64,000 bases of DNA from Planctomyces sp. SH-PL62 (GTDB taxonomy: Bacteria; Planctomycetota; Planctomycetia; Planctomycetales; Planctomycetaceae): NCBI GenBank assembly GCA_945905295.1, contig CAMDPX010000001.1, positions 105,410 to 169,409 on the forward strand, written 5' to 3'. Made by a program: the position numbers and the translations under genes. Of the stretch, positions 1,918-64,000 are shown one piece after another (within the stretch, counting starts at the first letter, position 1; every line of letters starts with the position of its first letter). The notes under the pieces are model-generated. The model was not told where the DNA came from. It worked only from the letters and a program-made list of their open reading frames with translations, and did no database searches.

Positions 1918-2009
1918 CTGACAGAAAAATGGGGGCAGAAAAAAGTGACGAATCAAATCTTGTGACGATGGGAAGTTGCCCCTTTTTTCTGCCCCCATTT
2001 TTCTGTCAG
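1918..2009. repeat. Inverted repeat, 28-bp perfect arms CTGACAGAAAAATGGGGGCAGAAAAAAG
   Basis: Arms 1918-1945 and 1982-2009; each arm has an internal CAGAAAAA direct repeat. Confidence 0.9.
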
Positions 2010-2917: not shown

Positions 2918-3743
2918 CTCATCGTCAACGGACAATCGTGCGGCCGATGCGACTGGTGTTGTCGCCAAGCCCTTTGGATCGCCGGTGGGGAAACCTTTGA
3001 TTGTGAAATCGTTGTTTGTCGTGAATGGCATCGTCTGTTGCGCGCTGGTGGCGGCGTGGGTGGCGTTTGGTACGCGCGGCCGGAACAACTCGGACGAGCC
3101 GAAGCCGTTTGCCAGTGCGACAGACATCACCGATGACGACGACGACGGTCGCCCGAAGGTCATCAAGATAGAAATGAAATGGCCGGAGTCGGGGATCGCC
3201 GATTTCGAGTTCACGGAACGGAGCGGCAAGGTCGTTCACAAAGAGGATCTCGTTGGGCATCCGTGGGTCGTGAGTTTCATCTTCACGCATTGCGCGGGAC
3301 CGTGCTTCCGAGTGACCTCGGCGATGCGGCGGCTTCAAGACGAGTTCTTCCAAGACACCGACCTGCGGCTGGTGACGATCACGGTCGATCCGGAACGGGA
3401 CAGCCCAGCGCAGCTCGCCAAGTATGCGAAGGACTTTCAGGCGTCGCCGGAGCGGTGGTTGTTTCTGACCGATCCCACCGGACTGAAGGACAAGATTTAT
3501 CCGCTGATCAACGGCAGCTTTCTGATGCCGGTGCAAGAAGCGACCGGTGCAATGCGGATCGAAGGGCACGAGTTCATCCACACGAACAACATCTTGTTGG
3601 TCGATGAACGTGGCGTTGTGCAGGGCAAATGGAACTCGATCGACGACGCCAGCTTCGACCAACTGCGCCGCGAGCTGCGAAAGCGATTGAAGAAGACATC
3701 GGAAAAGAGTGTTCCAAGCGAAGCCGGCACGAAAACCGAATGA
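2907..3743 (+). CDS. SCO1/SenC family copper chaperone-like protein
   Basis: TERSGKVVHKEDLVGHPWVVSFIFTHCAGPCFRVTSAMRRLQ...TVDPERDSPAQLAKYA...GHEFIHTNNILLVDERG. Confidence 0.9.
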   Translation: MSDSSSSTDNRAADATGVVAKPFGSPVGKPLIVKSLFVVNGIVCCALVAAWVAFGTRGRNNSDEPKPFASATDITDDDDDGRPKVIKIEMKWPESGIADFEFTERSGKVVHKEDLVGHPWVVSFIFTHCAGPCFRVTSAMRRLQDEFFQDTDLRLVTITVDPERDSPAQLAKYAKDFQASPERWLFLTDPTGLKDKIYPLINGSFLMPVQEATGAMRIEGHEFIHTNNILLVDERGVVQGKWNSIDDASFDQLRRELRKRLKKTSEKSVPSEAGTKTE

Positions 3744-9771: not shown

Positions 9772-9856
9772 GGGGTCGGGAGTCTTTTTCATGCCGCGGA
9801 ATCTTCAAGACCTGCATATCGTTTTCTGACGCGGCATGAAAAAGACTCCCGACCCC
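9772..9856. repeat. Inverted repeat, 27-bp perfect arms GGGGTCGGGAGTCTTTTTCATGCCGCG
   Basis: Arms 9772-9798 and 9830-9856; second family member at 62701. Confidence 0.92.
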
Positions 9857-11533: not shown

Positions 11534-11594
11534 GTAGGACGGACAATCCTGTCCGTCCTCAAGAACTCATGACGGACAGGATTGTCCGTTCTAC
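11534..11594. repeat. GTAG-hairpin ... hairpin-CTAC element
   Basis: GTAG 11534-11537, GACGGACA-ATCC-TGTCCGTC 11538-11557, GACGGACA-GGAT-TGTCCGTT 11571-11590, CTAC 11591-11594. Confidence 0.9.
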
Positions 11595-15658: not shown

Positions 15659-16558
15659 AAGTCTGGTGACGAGCCGGCGGAGGTGCGGTTCGGTGCTGGC
15701 GGCGGCATGAACGACTTCTTCGCTGGTGGTTTGCTGAACGTCGTCCGCACGAAACACGTTCGTGACCATCGAAAACGCAACGACCGGCAAGCCGAGTTCG
15801 TGCGCCACCAACACTTCGGGAACGGTGGACATGCCGACGACATCGCCGAGCGTGCGCAACCATCGGTACTCCGCGCGAGTTTCGTAATTCGGTCCGAGCA
15901 TCGCGACGTAGGTGCCACGACAAATTGGAATGTGTTCTTCGGCGGCGAATCGTTCGGCGAGTGAGAGAAGTCGCGGGTCGTAGAACGGATTCCTCGCACG
16001 GCCATCCATGAGATGACTTGGCGAGCGGGGCGGCGTCAGCCGCCCGGTGCATTCGTGGGGAACCGGGGGGCTGACGCCGCCCCGCTCGCCCGTCCCTTCC
16101 GTTGAGACGGGCAAGAGTGCCCGTCCTACATTGCCCATCAAATTGACGTGGTCATCGATCAACAGGATGTCGCCAGAGCGCAGCAACGGGTTCATCCCAC
16201 CGCTCGCGTTCGACACGATTAAGTACTCCGCGCCGAGCGCGGCAAGAACTCGAACAGGAAACGTGATCTGCTGGGCTGAGTAACCTTCATACGCGTGAAA
16301 GCGACCGTCCATCGCGATCAGCGGCACGCCCGCCAAGCGACCGGCCAACAGCCGGCCGCGATGACTGTCGGCGGTCGAACGCACAAAGTGCGGCAGGTCG
16401 CGATAACTCCACTCGGCTTCGATGGTGATGTGCTGAGCGAGCGAACCGAGGCCCGTCCCCAGAATAATCGCGGCGCGAGGTCGTTCGACCCAGCCGGCGC
16501 GAACCACGGCGACGGCCTCGGCAACAGCGGCGGAGAGTTGATCGGCGGACAAATTCAT
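15641..16558 (-). CDS. Purine nucleoside phosphorylase with in-frame palindromic-element insertion
   Basis: IILGTGLGSLAQHI...VSNASGGMNPLLRSGDILLIDDHVNLMG, foreign segment, NPFYDPRLLSLAERFA...TYVAMLGPNYETRAEYRWLRTLGDVVGMSTVPE. Confidence 0.9.
   Translation of the reverse strand: MNLSADQLSAAVAEAVAVVRAGWVERPRAAIILGTGLGSLAQHITIEAEWSYRDLPHFVRSTADSHRGRLLAGRLAGVPLIAMDGRFHAYEGYSAQQITFPVRVLAALGAEYLIVSNASGGMNPLLRSGDILLIDDHVNLMGNVGRALLPVSTEGTGERGGVSPPVPHECTGRLTPPRSPSHLMDGRARNPFYDPRLLSLAERFAAEEHIPICRGTYVAMLGPNYETRAEYRWLRTLGDVVGMSTVPEVLVAHELGLPVVAFSMVTNVFRADDVQQTTSEEVVHAAASTEPHLRRLVTRLLTADR
16020..16129. repeat. Composite palindromic insertion within the PNP gene
   Basis: Arms ggcgagcggggcggcgtcagccgcccggt / accggggggctgacgccgccccgctcgcc (16020-16090), then hairpin 16106-16125 + CTAC 16126-16129. 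Confidence 0.9.
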
Positions 16559-16572
16559 CGCGAGCGTTCCCG

Positions 16573-19080
16573 TCAGCCTTGGCCGTTGTGCCGATGCCAG
16601 TCTTGTTCCATTTGTCGAAGCTGCACTTCGAGCTGCCGCAGTTCGTCCGGCGGGAGCGATTCGCCTCCGAAGCGGACTCGGTAAAACCGCGTAACGATGT
16701 CTGCCGGGACGCTCGCCAATTGTTGTTCGGAGAGTCTCTGCGACCAGGTCGGTTGCGAGGCCAAAACGAATTCACGCGCCGTTTGAGTTGGCAACGGTTC
16801 GAGTCCGGCAGATCGCAGCAACCGCAGAAAGCGTTCGTAGAACTCGACCCGCACACGCTGCTCGGCCGACTCCCCGCGCAGCCGCCGCAGGAGCACAGTC
16901 CACCAGCGCGACCAGCGACCACGCCAACCATCACCGTTGTTCGGCGCAGTTTCGCGGGGCAACAGCCAGCTCAAAAACTTTAGCCACTGCGCAAACCATC
17001 CGTCGCGTGAGGCGGCCGCTCGTTGTGATCGCGCCGCCAGCAGCTTCCAGGTCAAGCTGCCAAGCATCACCACGAATAACAGCAGCGCCGGTACATACCG
17101 CCTAAGCCCCGACGCACCTCCCTTCGTGAAGTCGCCGTTCATCGCGGCGCGGGTATCGTCCCGGATCGTTTCCCACACCTGCTGAGCCAATTCCTTGAGC
17201 GGCGTGTAGAGGTTGCTGCTCTGCTCGGAAAATGACAGGCCCACCACGCTGTGCGACCAAGTGTCGGCGAACAGATTCGCCAGATTGTTGAAGAGGCCGA
17301 ATTTCGGAGCCAGCGATTTCACACTGTCGGAACGGCTGGCGGGGGTCGCGTCGAGAACCCGCCAGTTGCCATCGAGGTATGCTTCGACCCACACATGCGC
17401 GTGCCGGCCTTGCACCACGAAGTAGCCGGTACTGCGCTTCACGTCGCCCCCTTTGAAACCGCTGACCAACCGCGCGGGAATCTCGACGGCCCGCAACATC
17501 AGCGCGAGCGCCGAGGCGAAGTATTCGCAATGCCCTTCCTTGCGGTTGAACAGGAAATCTTCGACCGCGTCGATCTTGGAATCTTTGATCGACATGTCGA
17601 GCGTGTAGCCGAACTCGCCCGAATCGCGCAAATAATGCACGAGCCTCTGCGCCTTCTCGGTCGGTGTCGCACTCGTCGCGTTCGGTGGTTGAGCGACCTG
17701 CCGTGCCAGGCTTTGCAAACGTTCGAGTCCACGCTCCGGAAGCAGACCGTAGTATTCGACCTCGTTGCGCAACGTCAGGCTCGGATGTGTGCCACGTGGG
17801 AACGGCAGGTCGCCTCCGAGCCGCGGCTTGTCGGAATAGATCGTGTACATCAGGGTTTCACGCCCGGTGATGTTGTCGCTGCGGTACAGCGTCGCGGTCA
17901 AACGCCGCTCGATGAGCTGCGATAACCGATGCTCCAACCGCCCCGCCACGTGCTGCGGCATGGCGAACAGGATGCCGGAGTCCATTGGCTCAACCCGAAA
18001 CTCCTGCCGGATGACGTCACTGGTGGTGGGCTGCGATGGCACGGTTCTCAGATTGTCGTTCTTCCCCGTGGTGCCGACACGCCATTTTCCCTTCTCGTAT
18101 TCTCCCATCACCGAGCCACGGAACAGCGGTTCGTCAAAGCCGAGCCGCGTCGCATGTTCGGCAATGTCCAACGGCTGATCGGTCGCCTGATCGAACAGCC
18201 GCACCTCCATCACCGTCTGCGTCCCTTCCAGAATCTGGCCGATGTCTCCGAGCTGCACTTCCTCGGCAAACCCGCTCTGCAAGATGCGCAGCGGCTGATC
18301 GGGCCCCTCGCCAAACGCGGCAAAACTGCCGACCCAAATCCGTGGCGTGAACATGAAGAACAACGCCCCCACCAGCGCTGACAACACGACGTTCGCGAGA
18401 ACGCCCGACGCGAATGGTCCACTGATCCAGCGCAACCGCGGATCAATCTGCACCGTGCTGACCGGGTGGCTGCGCTGATTCCACAGAAATGTTTCTGCCG
18501 ATGCCGGGAGGCCGAGGCTCCCGCCGAGCCGGTCCGTGACGATCGAAACTCGATCCGGCTCGGCGGGAGCCTCGCCCTCCCGATGTTTCGCGAACAGCAC
18601 CTGGTCGTCGGAGGCGTATCGCTCTCGTGCGCGGCTGAGCGTGAACAGCGTCAGTGTCCATACTGCGAGAACCAAGAACATCCCGCACAGCGCCCCGAAG
18701 GCTCCCGTCGAAGTCAGCACTGCTCCGACCGCGACGTGCAGCACCGCCAGCAAACACAAGGTCCAATACATCCGCGCCGTCTTGGACAGGAACAACACAA
18801 TCCACGTCAGGTACACCAGCAAGTGCGCGAGCGAAAGTAATCGCGCTTCGATCTGGCCACTGCTCAATTCCCAACCCGCCAGACCAAAGGCCGCTAAGCC
18901 CAGTACGTTGGCCCAACTGACTCGCAGCCAAAACAACTTCCAACGCTCGGTGACAAACAACGCCAAGATCGCCAGTGGGATCGTGAACGCATCCGGGAAG
19001 CTCGCCCCTTCGGCAAACGCCAACATGCCGCTGCCCAGCATCACCATGCCATACAGACTGACTTGTAGCACCGTTGTCAT
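16573..19080 (-). CDS. Transglutaminase domain protein with DUF3488-like membrane N-terminus
   Basis: Multiple TM; GEFGYTLDMSIKDSKIDAVEDFLFNRKEGHCEYFASALALMLRAVEIPARLVSGFKGGD...HAHVWVEAYLDGNWRVLDATP; start MTTVLQVSLYG overlaps the DUF58 stop. Confidence 0.92.
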   Translation of the reverse strand: MTTVLQVSLYGMVMLGSGMLAFAEGASFPDAFTIPLAILALFVTERWKLFWLRVSWANVLGLAAFGLAGWELSSGQIEARLLSLAHLLVYLTWIVLFLSKTARMYWTLCLLAVLHVAVGAVLTSTGAFGALCGMFLVLAVWTLTLFTLSRARERYASDDQVLFAKHREGEAPAEPDRVSIVTDRLGGSLGLPASAETFLWNQRSHPVSTVQIDPRLRWISGPFASGVLANVVLSALVGALFFMFTPRIWVGSFAAFGEGPDQPLRILQSGFAEEVQLGDIGQILEGTQTVMEVRLFDQATDQPLDIAEHATRLGFDEPLFRGSVMGEYEKGKWRVGTTGKNDNLRTVPSQPTTSDVIRQEFRVEPMDSGILFAMPQHVAGRLEHRLSQLIERRLTATLYRSDNITGRETLMYTIYSDKPRLGGDLPFPRGTHPSLTLRNEVEYYGLLPERGLERLQSLARQVAQPPNATSATPTEKAQRLVHYLRDSGEFGYTLDMSIKDSKIDAVEDFLFNRKEGHCEYFASALALMLRAVEIPARLVSGFKGGDVKRSTGYFVVQGRHAHVWVEAYLDGNWRVLDATPASRSDSVKSLAPKFGLFNNLANLFADTWSHSVVGLSFSEQSSNLYTPLKELAQQVWETIRDDTRAAMNGDFTKGGASGLRRYVPALLLFVVMLGSLTWKLLAARSQRAAASRDGWFAQWLKFLSWLLPRETAPNNGDGWRGRWSRWWTVLLRRLRGESAEQRVRVEFYERFLRLLRSAGLEPLPTQTAREFVLASQPTWSQRLSEQQLASVPADIVTRFYRVRFGGESLPPDELRQLEVQLRQMEQDWHRHNGQG
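18504..18581. repeat. Palindromic element in frame within the transglutaminase gene
   Basis: cgggaggccgaggctcccgccgagccgg ... ccggctcggcgggagcctcgccctcccg; encodes REGEAPAEP..RLGGSLGLPA. Confidence 0.88.
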
Positions 19081-31530: not shown

Positions 31531-31612
31531 GTAGGTCAGCCTTTCCAGGCTGACCTGTTTTACGTTTGACGCGGTTGTGAACGTTGGGGTCAGGCTAGAA
31601 AGCCTGACCTAC
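31531..31612. repeat. GTAG-hairpin ... hairpin-CTAC element
   Basis: GTAG 31531-31534, GTCAGCC-tttcca-GGCTGAC, ... GTCAGGC-tagaaa-GCCTGAC, CTAC 31609-31612. Confidence 0.9.
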
Positions 31613-44524: not shown

Positions 44525-44602
44525 GGCGAGCGGGGCGGCGTCAGCCCCCCGGTTCTTATCGGCCCGCGCGATCACCGGGGGGCTGACGCCGCCCCGCTCG
44601 CC
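44525..44602. repeat. Inverted repeat, 29-bp perfect arms GGCGAGCGGGGCGGCGTCAGCCCCCCGGT
   Basis: Arms 44525-44553 and 44574-44602; same family inside the PNP gene and half-copy in the permease. Confidence 0.93.
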
Positions 44603-49695: not shown

Positions 49696-49776
49696 GTGGG
49701 GCACGTTTCCAACGTGCCCGTCCTGCACGCTCACGGGCACGGGCACGCTCACGGGCACGTTGAAAACGTGCCCCAC
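49696..49776. repeat. Palindrome GTGGGGCACGTTTCCAACGTGCCC ... GGGCACGTTGAAAACGTGCCCCAC
   Basis: Hairpins 49696-49719 and 49753-49776; central GCTCACGGGCAC tandem units. Confidence 0.88.
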
Positions 49777-52513: not shown

Positions 52514-52563
52514 GTAGCTCGGACGCCCACGTCCAAGAGACCGGACGTGGGCGTCCGGTCTAC
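52514..52563. repeat. GTAG-hairpin-hairpin-CTAC element
   Basis: GTAG CTC GGACGCCCACGTCC aagagacc GGACGTGGGCGTCC GGT CTAC. Confidence 0.9.
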
Positions 52564-62700: not shown

Positions 62701-62785
62701 GGGGTCGGGAGTCTTTTTCAGGCCGCCGAGTGTCTCGCGACGTCGAACGCTAAACTGCGGCGGCCTGAAAAAGACTCCCGACCCC
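62701..62785. repeat. Inverted repeat, 28-bp perfect arms GGGGTCGGGAGTCTTTTTCAGGCCGCCG
   Basis: Arms 62701-62728 and 62758-62785; family member of 9772-9856. Confidence 0.93.
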
Positions 62786-62804: not shown

Positions 62805-64000
62805 ATGCGTCGAGTCTGTCCGTTGATCGCGTTAGTCGCACTGATGTCGGTTGTGCTCACGATTGGCACAACGAGCAGAGACCTGCGATCCGATGATCCG
62901 CAGTCGAAGAACGCCGCTCCGCCGACGGCTCCGAAAGCAGAACCGAAGCGGATCGAAGTCGCACTCAACGGCCACACCTTTTCGCTGCCCGAAGGCTTCA
63001 CGATTGAACTCGTGGCCGGGCCGCCGCTGGTCAATCGGCCGATCAGCGCCAGCTTTGATGAAGAGGGTCGGCTGTACGTTTCCGATTCGTCCGGCACGAA
63101 CGATCCATCGGCGAAGCAACTCATCGACAAGCCGCATCGAGTCGTCCGACTCGAAGACACCGACGGCGACGGCAAGTTCGACAAGAGCAGCGTGTTCGCC
63201 GACAAGCTGATGTTTCCGGAGGGGACGTTGTGGCACGACGGCTCGCTGTATGTGGCCGCTCCGCCGAGCATCTGGAAGCTGACCGATACCGACGGCGACG
63301 GTGTGGCCGATCAACGCGAAGAGTGGTTCAAAGGGAACACGCTCACCGGCTGCGCGAACGATCTGCATGGGCCGTATCTCGGCCCCGACGGTTATCTCTA
63401 CTGGTGCAAGGGAGCGTTCGCGGAGCAGACCTACGAACGACCGGTTCGACCCGTAGGTTGGGACTCCGTCCCGACCAATTCGACGAACAAAAACACCGAA
63501 GCCAAAACCGAACCGGTCGGGACGGAGTCCCAACCTACGAAACCGTGGACCACGAAAGCCTCGCATATTTTCCGCGCGAGACCGGACGCTCCGCGAGACC
63601 CCGCCACCGGCAGCATCAAGACATCGGCGATCGAGTGCGTGATGACCGGCGGCATGGACAACCCGGTGGATGTCGTCTTCACGCCGACCGGCGAGCGAAT
63701 CTTCACGACGACGTTCCTGGTGCATCCGGGCGGAGGCAACCGCGACGGCCTGCTGCACGCCGTGTACGGCGGAGTCTATGGCAAGGACTGGAACGTGATT
63801 GATTCCCCCAGCCACCCGCGGACCGGCGACGTGATGCCGGTGCTGTGCCATCTCGGAGCCGCCGCCCCCTGCGGCCTGGAACGCTTGCAGTCCTCCGCCT
63901 GGGGCCGCGAGTACCAAGACAATCTCTTCGCCTGCTGCTTCAACATGCGGAAGGTGACTCGCCACGTCCTGCAACCTCACGGAGCGACGTTCCAAACCGA
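62805..64000 (+). CDS. PVC-type membrane-bound dehydrogenase N-terminal part (3' end outside window)
   Basis: FSLPEGFTIELVAGPPLVNRPISASFDEEGRLYVSDSSGTND...RVVRLEDTDGDGKFDKSSVFADKLMFPEGTLWHDGSLYVAAPPSIWKLTDTDGDG. Confidence 0.92.
   Translation, partial: MRRVCPLIALVALMSVVLTIGTTSRDLRSDDPQSKNAAPPTAPKAEPKRIEVALNGHTFSLPEGFTIELVAGPPLVNRPISASFDEEGRLYVSDSSGTNDPSAKQLIDKPHRVVRLEDTDGDGKFDKSSVFADKLMFPEGTLWHDGSLYVAAPPSIWKLTDTDGDGVADQREEWFKGNTLTGCANDLHGPYLGPDGYLYWCKGAFAEQTYERPVRPVGWDSVPTNSTNKNTEAKTEPVGTESQPTKPWTTKASHIFRARPDAPRDPATGSIKTSAIECVMTGGMDNPVDVVFTPTGERIFTTTFLVHPGGGNRDGLLHAVYGGVYGKDWNVIDSPSHPRTGDVMPVLCHLGAAAPCGLERLQSSAWGREYQDNLFACCFNMRKVTRHVLQPHGATFQT
63453..63538. repeat. GTAG-hairpin ... hairpin-CTAC element in frame within the PVC dehydrogenase gene
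   Basis: GTAG GTTGGGACTCCGTCCCGAC ... GTCGGGACGGAGTCCCAAC CTAC. Confidence 0.92.

Follow-up and report, generated by a model that had tools for sequence, protein, structure and literature searches.

The locus analysed here raises the question of how a gene for a PVC-type haem-binding CxxCH protein can be read straight through a long inverted repeat, and where this repeat came from. In the first-pass annotation of the window (the whole stretch of 64,000 nucleotides under analysis), a GTAG/CTAC element was described inside this gene as an exact inverted repeat, with arms encoding the peptides VGWDSVPT and VGTESQPT and with a length that keeps the frame and adds no stop codon. The 23-mer GTAGGTTGGGACTCCGTCCCGAC was indeed found by pattern search on both strands, exactly at the positions of the two arms (Table 1), with no exact match in 100 shuffled controls. 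The perfect arms extend to 25 nt (63452-63476 and 63515-63539), and a repeat search of the window gave arms of 31 nt, 94% complementary, with 26 nt between them. The frame and both peptides are as annotated, and the ORF at 62805-63998 reads through the element with no stops, remaining open to the contig end. The statement about length holds for the net change, since 90 nt, or 30 codons, are gained relative to the empty site of the congener G004; it does not hold for the palindrome itself, because the GTAG...CTAC span of 86 nt is no multiple of three.

The host gene was identified by a match to TIGR02604 (143 bits, cut-off 122) and also to DUF7133. The window ends at the end of contig C1, and a 138-bp overlap with contig C38 continues the gene. 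The part on C38 contains a second in-frame pair (L088); a second copy, about 1.7 kb downstream, is thus very probably present in the same gene. In the orthologues of G001 and G009, both element positions fall within one ORF. In the AlphaFold model, the insert is disordered and lies between strand 208-213 and strand 245-250, which suggests that the element sits in a loop joining two strands of the dehydrogenase; the model is of modest quality (pTM 0.58, mean pLDDT 59.5) and was used for the position of the insert alone.

Table 1. Host gene, inserted element and other inverted pairs in the window
Feature	Position	Strand	Remarks
Host gene, PVC-type haem-binding CxxCH protein	62805..64000	+	TIGR02604, DUF7133; truncated by contig end
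Left REP arm	63453..63475	+	Family A: GTAG + hairpin GTTGGGAC-TCC-GTCCCGAC
Spacer, 40 nt	63476..63515		Codes for most of NSTNKNTEAKTEP; no kinship with spacers of other copies
Right REP arm	63516..63538	-	Inverted 23-mer identical to left arm
Family I REP-like inverted pair (GGGGTCGGGAGTCTTTTTCAGGCC)	62701..62785		Between upstream nucleotidyltransferase-like gene and host gene
Family I inverted pair (GGGGTCGGGAGTCTTTTTCAGGCC)	9772..9856		Upstream of a gene
Family F inverted pair (GTGGGGCACGTTTCCAACGTGCCC)	49696..49776
Family B inverted pair (GTAGGTCAGCCTTTCCAGGCTGAC)	31531..31612
GGCGAGCGGGGCGGCGTCAGCC family inverted pair	16020..16090	-	In frame inside ORF
GGCGAGCGGGGCGGCGTCAGCC... family inverted pair	44525..44602
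Inverted pair of another family	18505..18582	-	In frame inside ORF
Further inverted pairs	11534..11594, 52514..52563, 1918..2009		Near gene borders; two GTAG-headed hairpins

Each arm of the element consists of a GTAG tetranucleotide adjoining a short hairpin, folding as ....((((((((...)))))))), that is, with an 8-bp stem and a 3-nt loop. This is the structure of the GTAG REP superfamily, and the element is a GTAG-type REP pair, herein referred to as family A. With at most two mismatches, the 23-mer was found in 261 copies (128 + 133) in this genome (G000), where the reversed control pattern gave no matches, so that the annotated dispersed, in-frame element is supported and does recur elsewhere. 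The 23-mer is present in 12 of the 12 searched genomes of the genus, with 5 to 261 copies each, and in none of the 47 genomes of other genera. All compared genomes are drafts. Neighbouring copies are arranged as inverted dimers with GTAG outward in 61 of 63 pairs, the remaining two being in another order; this arrangement is the one known from REPINs and HH dimers. The conserved spacer that travels with the arms of such dimers was not found: the arms of the sampled pairs are near identical, and their spacers, of 2-86 nt, are mostly unrelated between sites. Neither a target-site duplication nor a fixed inserted length fits the elements, whose lengths are 0, 1 or 2 modulo 3, and host loops are often lost together with the insertion. 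At L018, L020 and L045, a few copies have spacer and flanks in common (CGTATTGCATG...), which suggests tandem or segmental copying of larger units.

In total, 13 Y1_Tnp proteins were found in this genome. Two of them are encoded by RAYT genes with family A copies on their flanks, 8 for the gene on contig C225 and 6-7 for that on C147. Each of the two genes also includes an in-frame REP copy, which is read as VGTESQPT near the N-terminus. The proteins match Y1_Tnp above the cut-off and REP_Tyr_transpos with 58 and 52 bits, below the cut-off of 80. Their relatives in G005 and G007 have REPs at unchanged spacing, so that RAYT genes flanked by REPs (REPtrons) were found in three genomes. Close relatives of the family A RAYT were found in G000, G005 and G007 only, and none in G006 (112 copies of the 23-mer) or G010 (91 copies), drafts that may hide them. 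RAYT relatives in other Planctomycetes and Verrucomicrobia, including Rhodopirellula maiorica and a Limisphaerales MAG, carry their own GTAG hairpins at the gene borders. For each of families A, B, F and I, separate RAYT genes with flanking copies were found, which supports one RAYT per REP family; one such gene of family I is at G000:C115, and this family is also in frame in the helicase gene of G002 and G010. This physical linkage points to RAYT activity on the REPs. At L046, coding blocks with REP pairs (1640-1890 and 3120-3205) are repeated next to a RAYT gene; it looks as though parts of the adjacent gene were duplicated along with the REPs.

Altogether, the element is very likely a RAYT-linked GTAG REP doublet, similar to REPINs or BIMEs, that landed in a protein loop and is tolerated there in frame. 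RAYT would move the REP through a single-stranded hairpin, and the doublet, with its GTAG ends outward, would land in the loop between the two strands of the CxxCH dehydrogenase. The insert would be tolerated because 30 codons are gained without a stop. Selection would clear frame-breaking insertions, and permissive loops would thus gather REPs repeatedly; a new family may land on or beside an old element and displace it, and either conversion or selection acting on the DNA hairpin would keep the surviving arms near the sequence of their family. In this scheme, transposition, conversion and translation are all deduced from sequence.

The coding load of family A was estimated in 61 pairs drawn from the first listed exact copies, which are a sample of the genome and not a census, with coding regions called by codon usage, using a score derived from the window. 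In 26 of these pairs, or about 40%, both flanks are coding in one frame and no stop lies within. Among the rest, two are in frame but contain a stop, in four the frame shifts between flanks of one strand, and the others lie at gene borders or between genes. GTAG REPs are usually, if not obligatorily, extragenic, and in-frame insertion into protein genes is a trait of the palindromic elements of Rickettsia (RPEs). Since 26 of the 32 pairs with same-strand coding on both sides are in frame and open, versus an expected 2/9 (one of three frames, with one of three phases closed by TAG; p = 2e-12), insertions that disrupt the frame seem to be eliminated. Phase 2, in which the TAG is read, is avoided. 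The hosts of the in-frame pairs, named from their sequences, include PheT (phenylalanyl-tRNA synthetase beta), a SecA-like protein, Ser/Thr kinases and a UvrD/AddA-like helicase.

These frames bear on two other explanations. The hairpin could be lost from the RNA or passed over in translation, by splicing or ribosome bypassing, leaving a protein without the insert. The 25-bp perfect stem of the whole pair is strong enough to invite this idea (-35 kcal/mol, z -10, with DNA parameters), and the inserts are found in such conserved proteins as PheT. However, frame and stops would then be irrelevant, contrary to the in-frame excess and the avoidance of phase 2, and an Rfam search of the element gave no family match; removal of this kind is very unlikely. 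Alternatively, VGWDSVPT and VGTESQPT could form a selected, functional protein module with the repeat as its by-product, as near-identical peptides recur across many proteins. Yet the left arm reads VGWDSVPT or RLGLRPD, and the right arm VGTESQPT, GRDGVPTY or SGRSPNL, depending on the frame of the host gene. Because the frame differs between hosts and the same DNA gives different peptides, a selected peptide is unlikely to be the cause of the insert. Additionally, many copies are out of frame or outside genes, and congeners have unrelated palindromes or nothing instead, which makes a protein module highly improbable.

A gap in homologues, proposed earlier as a check on the element, was found: the orthologues in other genera have no insert here and, like that of the congener G004, have a short turn, for example AEQTYERPGREPFVTRASHIFR, instead of the 30 codons. 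In several other congeners, the same site is occupied. A CCGG(C/A)GGGCGYTAGCCCCCGG pair was found in G002, G006, G009 and G011, a GGGGGGCGTCAGCCCCC pair in G010 and a GTAGC pair in G003; the insert of G008 begins with the same REP as that in the window. The comparison was extended to 23 coding sites with usable orthologues, the SecA-like L001, L012 and L027 having given none. At 14 of these sites (L009, L046, L077, both L085 sites, L088, L093, L098, L100, L101, L104, L107, L113 and the window site), at least one congener has a different inverted-repeat family. The tested rival families GTAGGTCAGCCTTTCCAGGCTGAC, GTGGGACAGGCTTCCAGCCTGTC and ACGACGCGCCAGCGAGTGGTC are multi-copy in these genomes, and four rival families at reused sites flank their own RAYT. 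In G001 and G007, the L107 site likewise contains an in-frame pair of the GGCGAGCGGGGCGGCGTCAGCC family of the window. By a rough estimate, the three in-frame pairs in the 64-kb window correspond to some 400 per genome, and finding another pair at random within about 20 nt of a particular site in ten congeners would have a probability on the order of 1%; on these rough figures, reuse at 14 of 23 sites would be far above random overlap. It can be explained by permissive loops, by targeting of old elements, or by both. An assembly or binning artefact in metagenome-assembled genomes might be considered, given that the genomes are fragmented and the window stops at a contig end, but the same in-frame sites with orthologous spacers were found in independently assembled genomes (L078, L108, L025 and L100), and such an artefact is exceedingly improbable.

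Two accounts of the reuse within the preferred REP reading were compared. In the first, loops serve as docking sites common to competing RAYT-linked families, newcomers displace older elements and RAYT-dependent conversion rewrites the arms; this is a tentative proposal that we consider rather doubtful. In the second, there is no displacement: the families enter a few tolerant loops independently, and the conservation of arms reflects a bias to recent or detectable pairs. This account has a little under an even chance. It agrees with the spacers of different families at one site, which are not more alike than those between sites (mean z 0.51 vs 0.40, p = 0.18), with the insertion points in the PheT loop, which vary between families, and with the degenerate pairs present in the PheT loop in G002, G006 and G007. 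Against it stand the six families with identical boundaries at L085 site b and one nested element: at L046 in G006, a pair of another family fills the left half, while the old right arm and the end of the spacer remain, all in frame. The age and divergence of same-family orthologues, considered below, also count against it.

Species that share both site and family have homologous spacers (mean z 5.1, n = 25), and the insertion is therefore older than the species split. In 19 same-family comparisons, identity is 96.5% for arms and 81.5% for spacers, versus 84.8% for the flanking coding DNA and 72.6% for its third codon positions; this contrast is an upper bound, because the comparison is restricted to pairs that can still be identified in both species and is thus biased towards conserved arms. 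At the L025 kinase site, for example, the arms are identical at 46 of 46 positions and the spacer, by eye, at about 31 of 40. Because the arms are so much more similar than the spacers and the third codon positions (73%), they appear to be maintained or homogenised. Neutral decay alone would be insufficient for this contrast; selection acting on the DNA hairpin would suffice, and so would copying from REPs elsewhere in the genome. The right arm of L108 in G002 has three changes, which give a subfamily sequence known from other places as well; this hints at such copying. An exchange of arms around a kept spacer was rejected as a rule, as the spacers of different families are no more alike than chance. 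A comparison of spacers with empty host loops, made for the idea of a captured loop, gave p = 0.009, driven by non-independent comparisons at L104 and L078.

GTAG REPs were described previously in many phyla, including Planctomycetes and Verrucomicrobia, together with RAYT-flanking REPs (REPtrons) and REPs that lie within genes and encode 20-30 residues; in two Xanthomonas species, recB was found to carry different REPs at roughly the same place (Di Nocera et al. 2013, PMC3733652). The elements found here have in common with those the GTAG foot, the short hairpin, inverted dimers, RAYT flanking and intragenic copies, including those in tRNA synthetases and helicases (PMC3733652). They differ in the share of sampled pairs that are in frame in ORFs, in the unrelated spacers of the outward dimers, which are usually conserved in the HH dimers of that study (PMC3733652), and in the presence of several RAYT-linked families at the same coding sites across the genus. 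REPINs, defined in Pseudomonas fluorescens SBW25, are likewise inverted REP doublets folding as one hairpin, with linked RAYT genes, but they are almost wholly extragenic (Bertels and Rainey 2011, PMC3116915). In SBW25, overlap with genes was reported for just 14 of roughly 1,067 core 16-mers, and the doublets have characteristic spacings of 71 and 110 bp (PMC3116915); in contrast, many copies are coding here, and the spacing ranges over 2-86 nt.

The RPEs (Ogata et al. 2000, 2002, as cited in PMC6649704 and PMC3733652) share with the present elements the in-frame palindromes tolerated by host proteins. In those accounts, no RAYT link is described for RPEs, and the repeats are reported to lose their identity with time (PMC6649704), whereas the REPs found here are RAYT-linked, have arms near the consensus and belong to families that replace each other at a site. 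Coding inverted repeats of nematomorph mitochondria (PMC6649704) also coexist with coding sequence and have arms evolving in concert; however, they coincide with conserved coding residues, in contrast to inserts that are dispersed and linked to a transposase. Thus, the element is a GTAG REP behaving like an RPE. GTAG REPs, including intragenic ones, are already known (PMC3733652), and the RPEs are analogous. The apparently new features are the in-frame load, the reuse of sites by rival RAYT-linked families and the contrast between arms and spacers; no description of such an in-frame scale, of recurrent loop occupation by RAYT-linked families or of this contrast was found in the literature searched, nor was anything relevant on site reuse by RPEs.

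How REPs move, and whether gene conversion drives their evolution, has been a question since the 1980s (Higgins 1988, as cited in PMC3116915). Twelve genomes of one genus with coding insertions provide aligned filled and empty sites together with a clock in the flanking codons. Arms and spacers can therefore be dated separately, which makes the question directly testable. Since relatives carry other hairpin families or nothing at the same positions, protein loops resemble landing sites that selfish DNA has used again and again, and selfish palindromes keep altering the loops of core proteins, including PheT.
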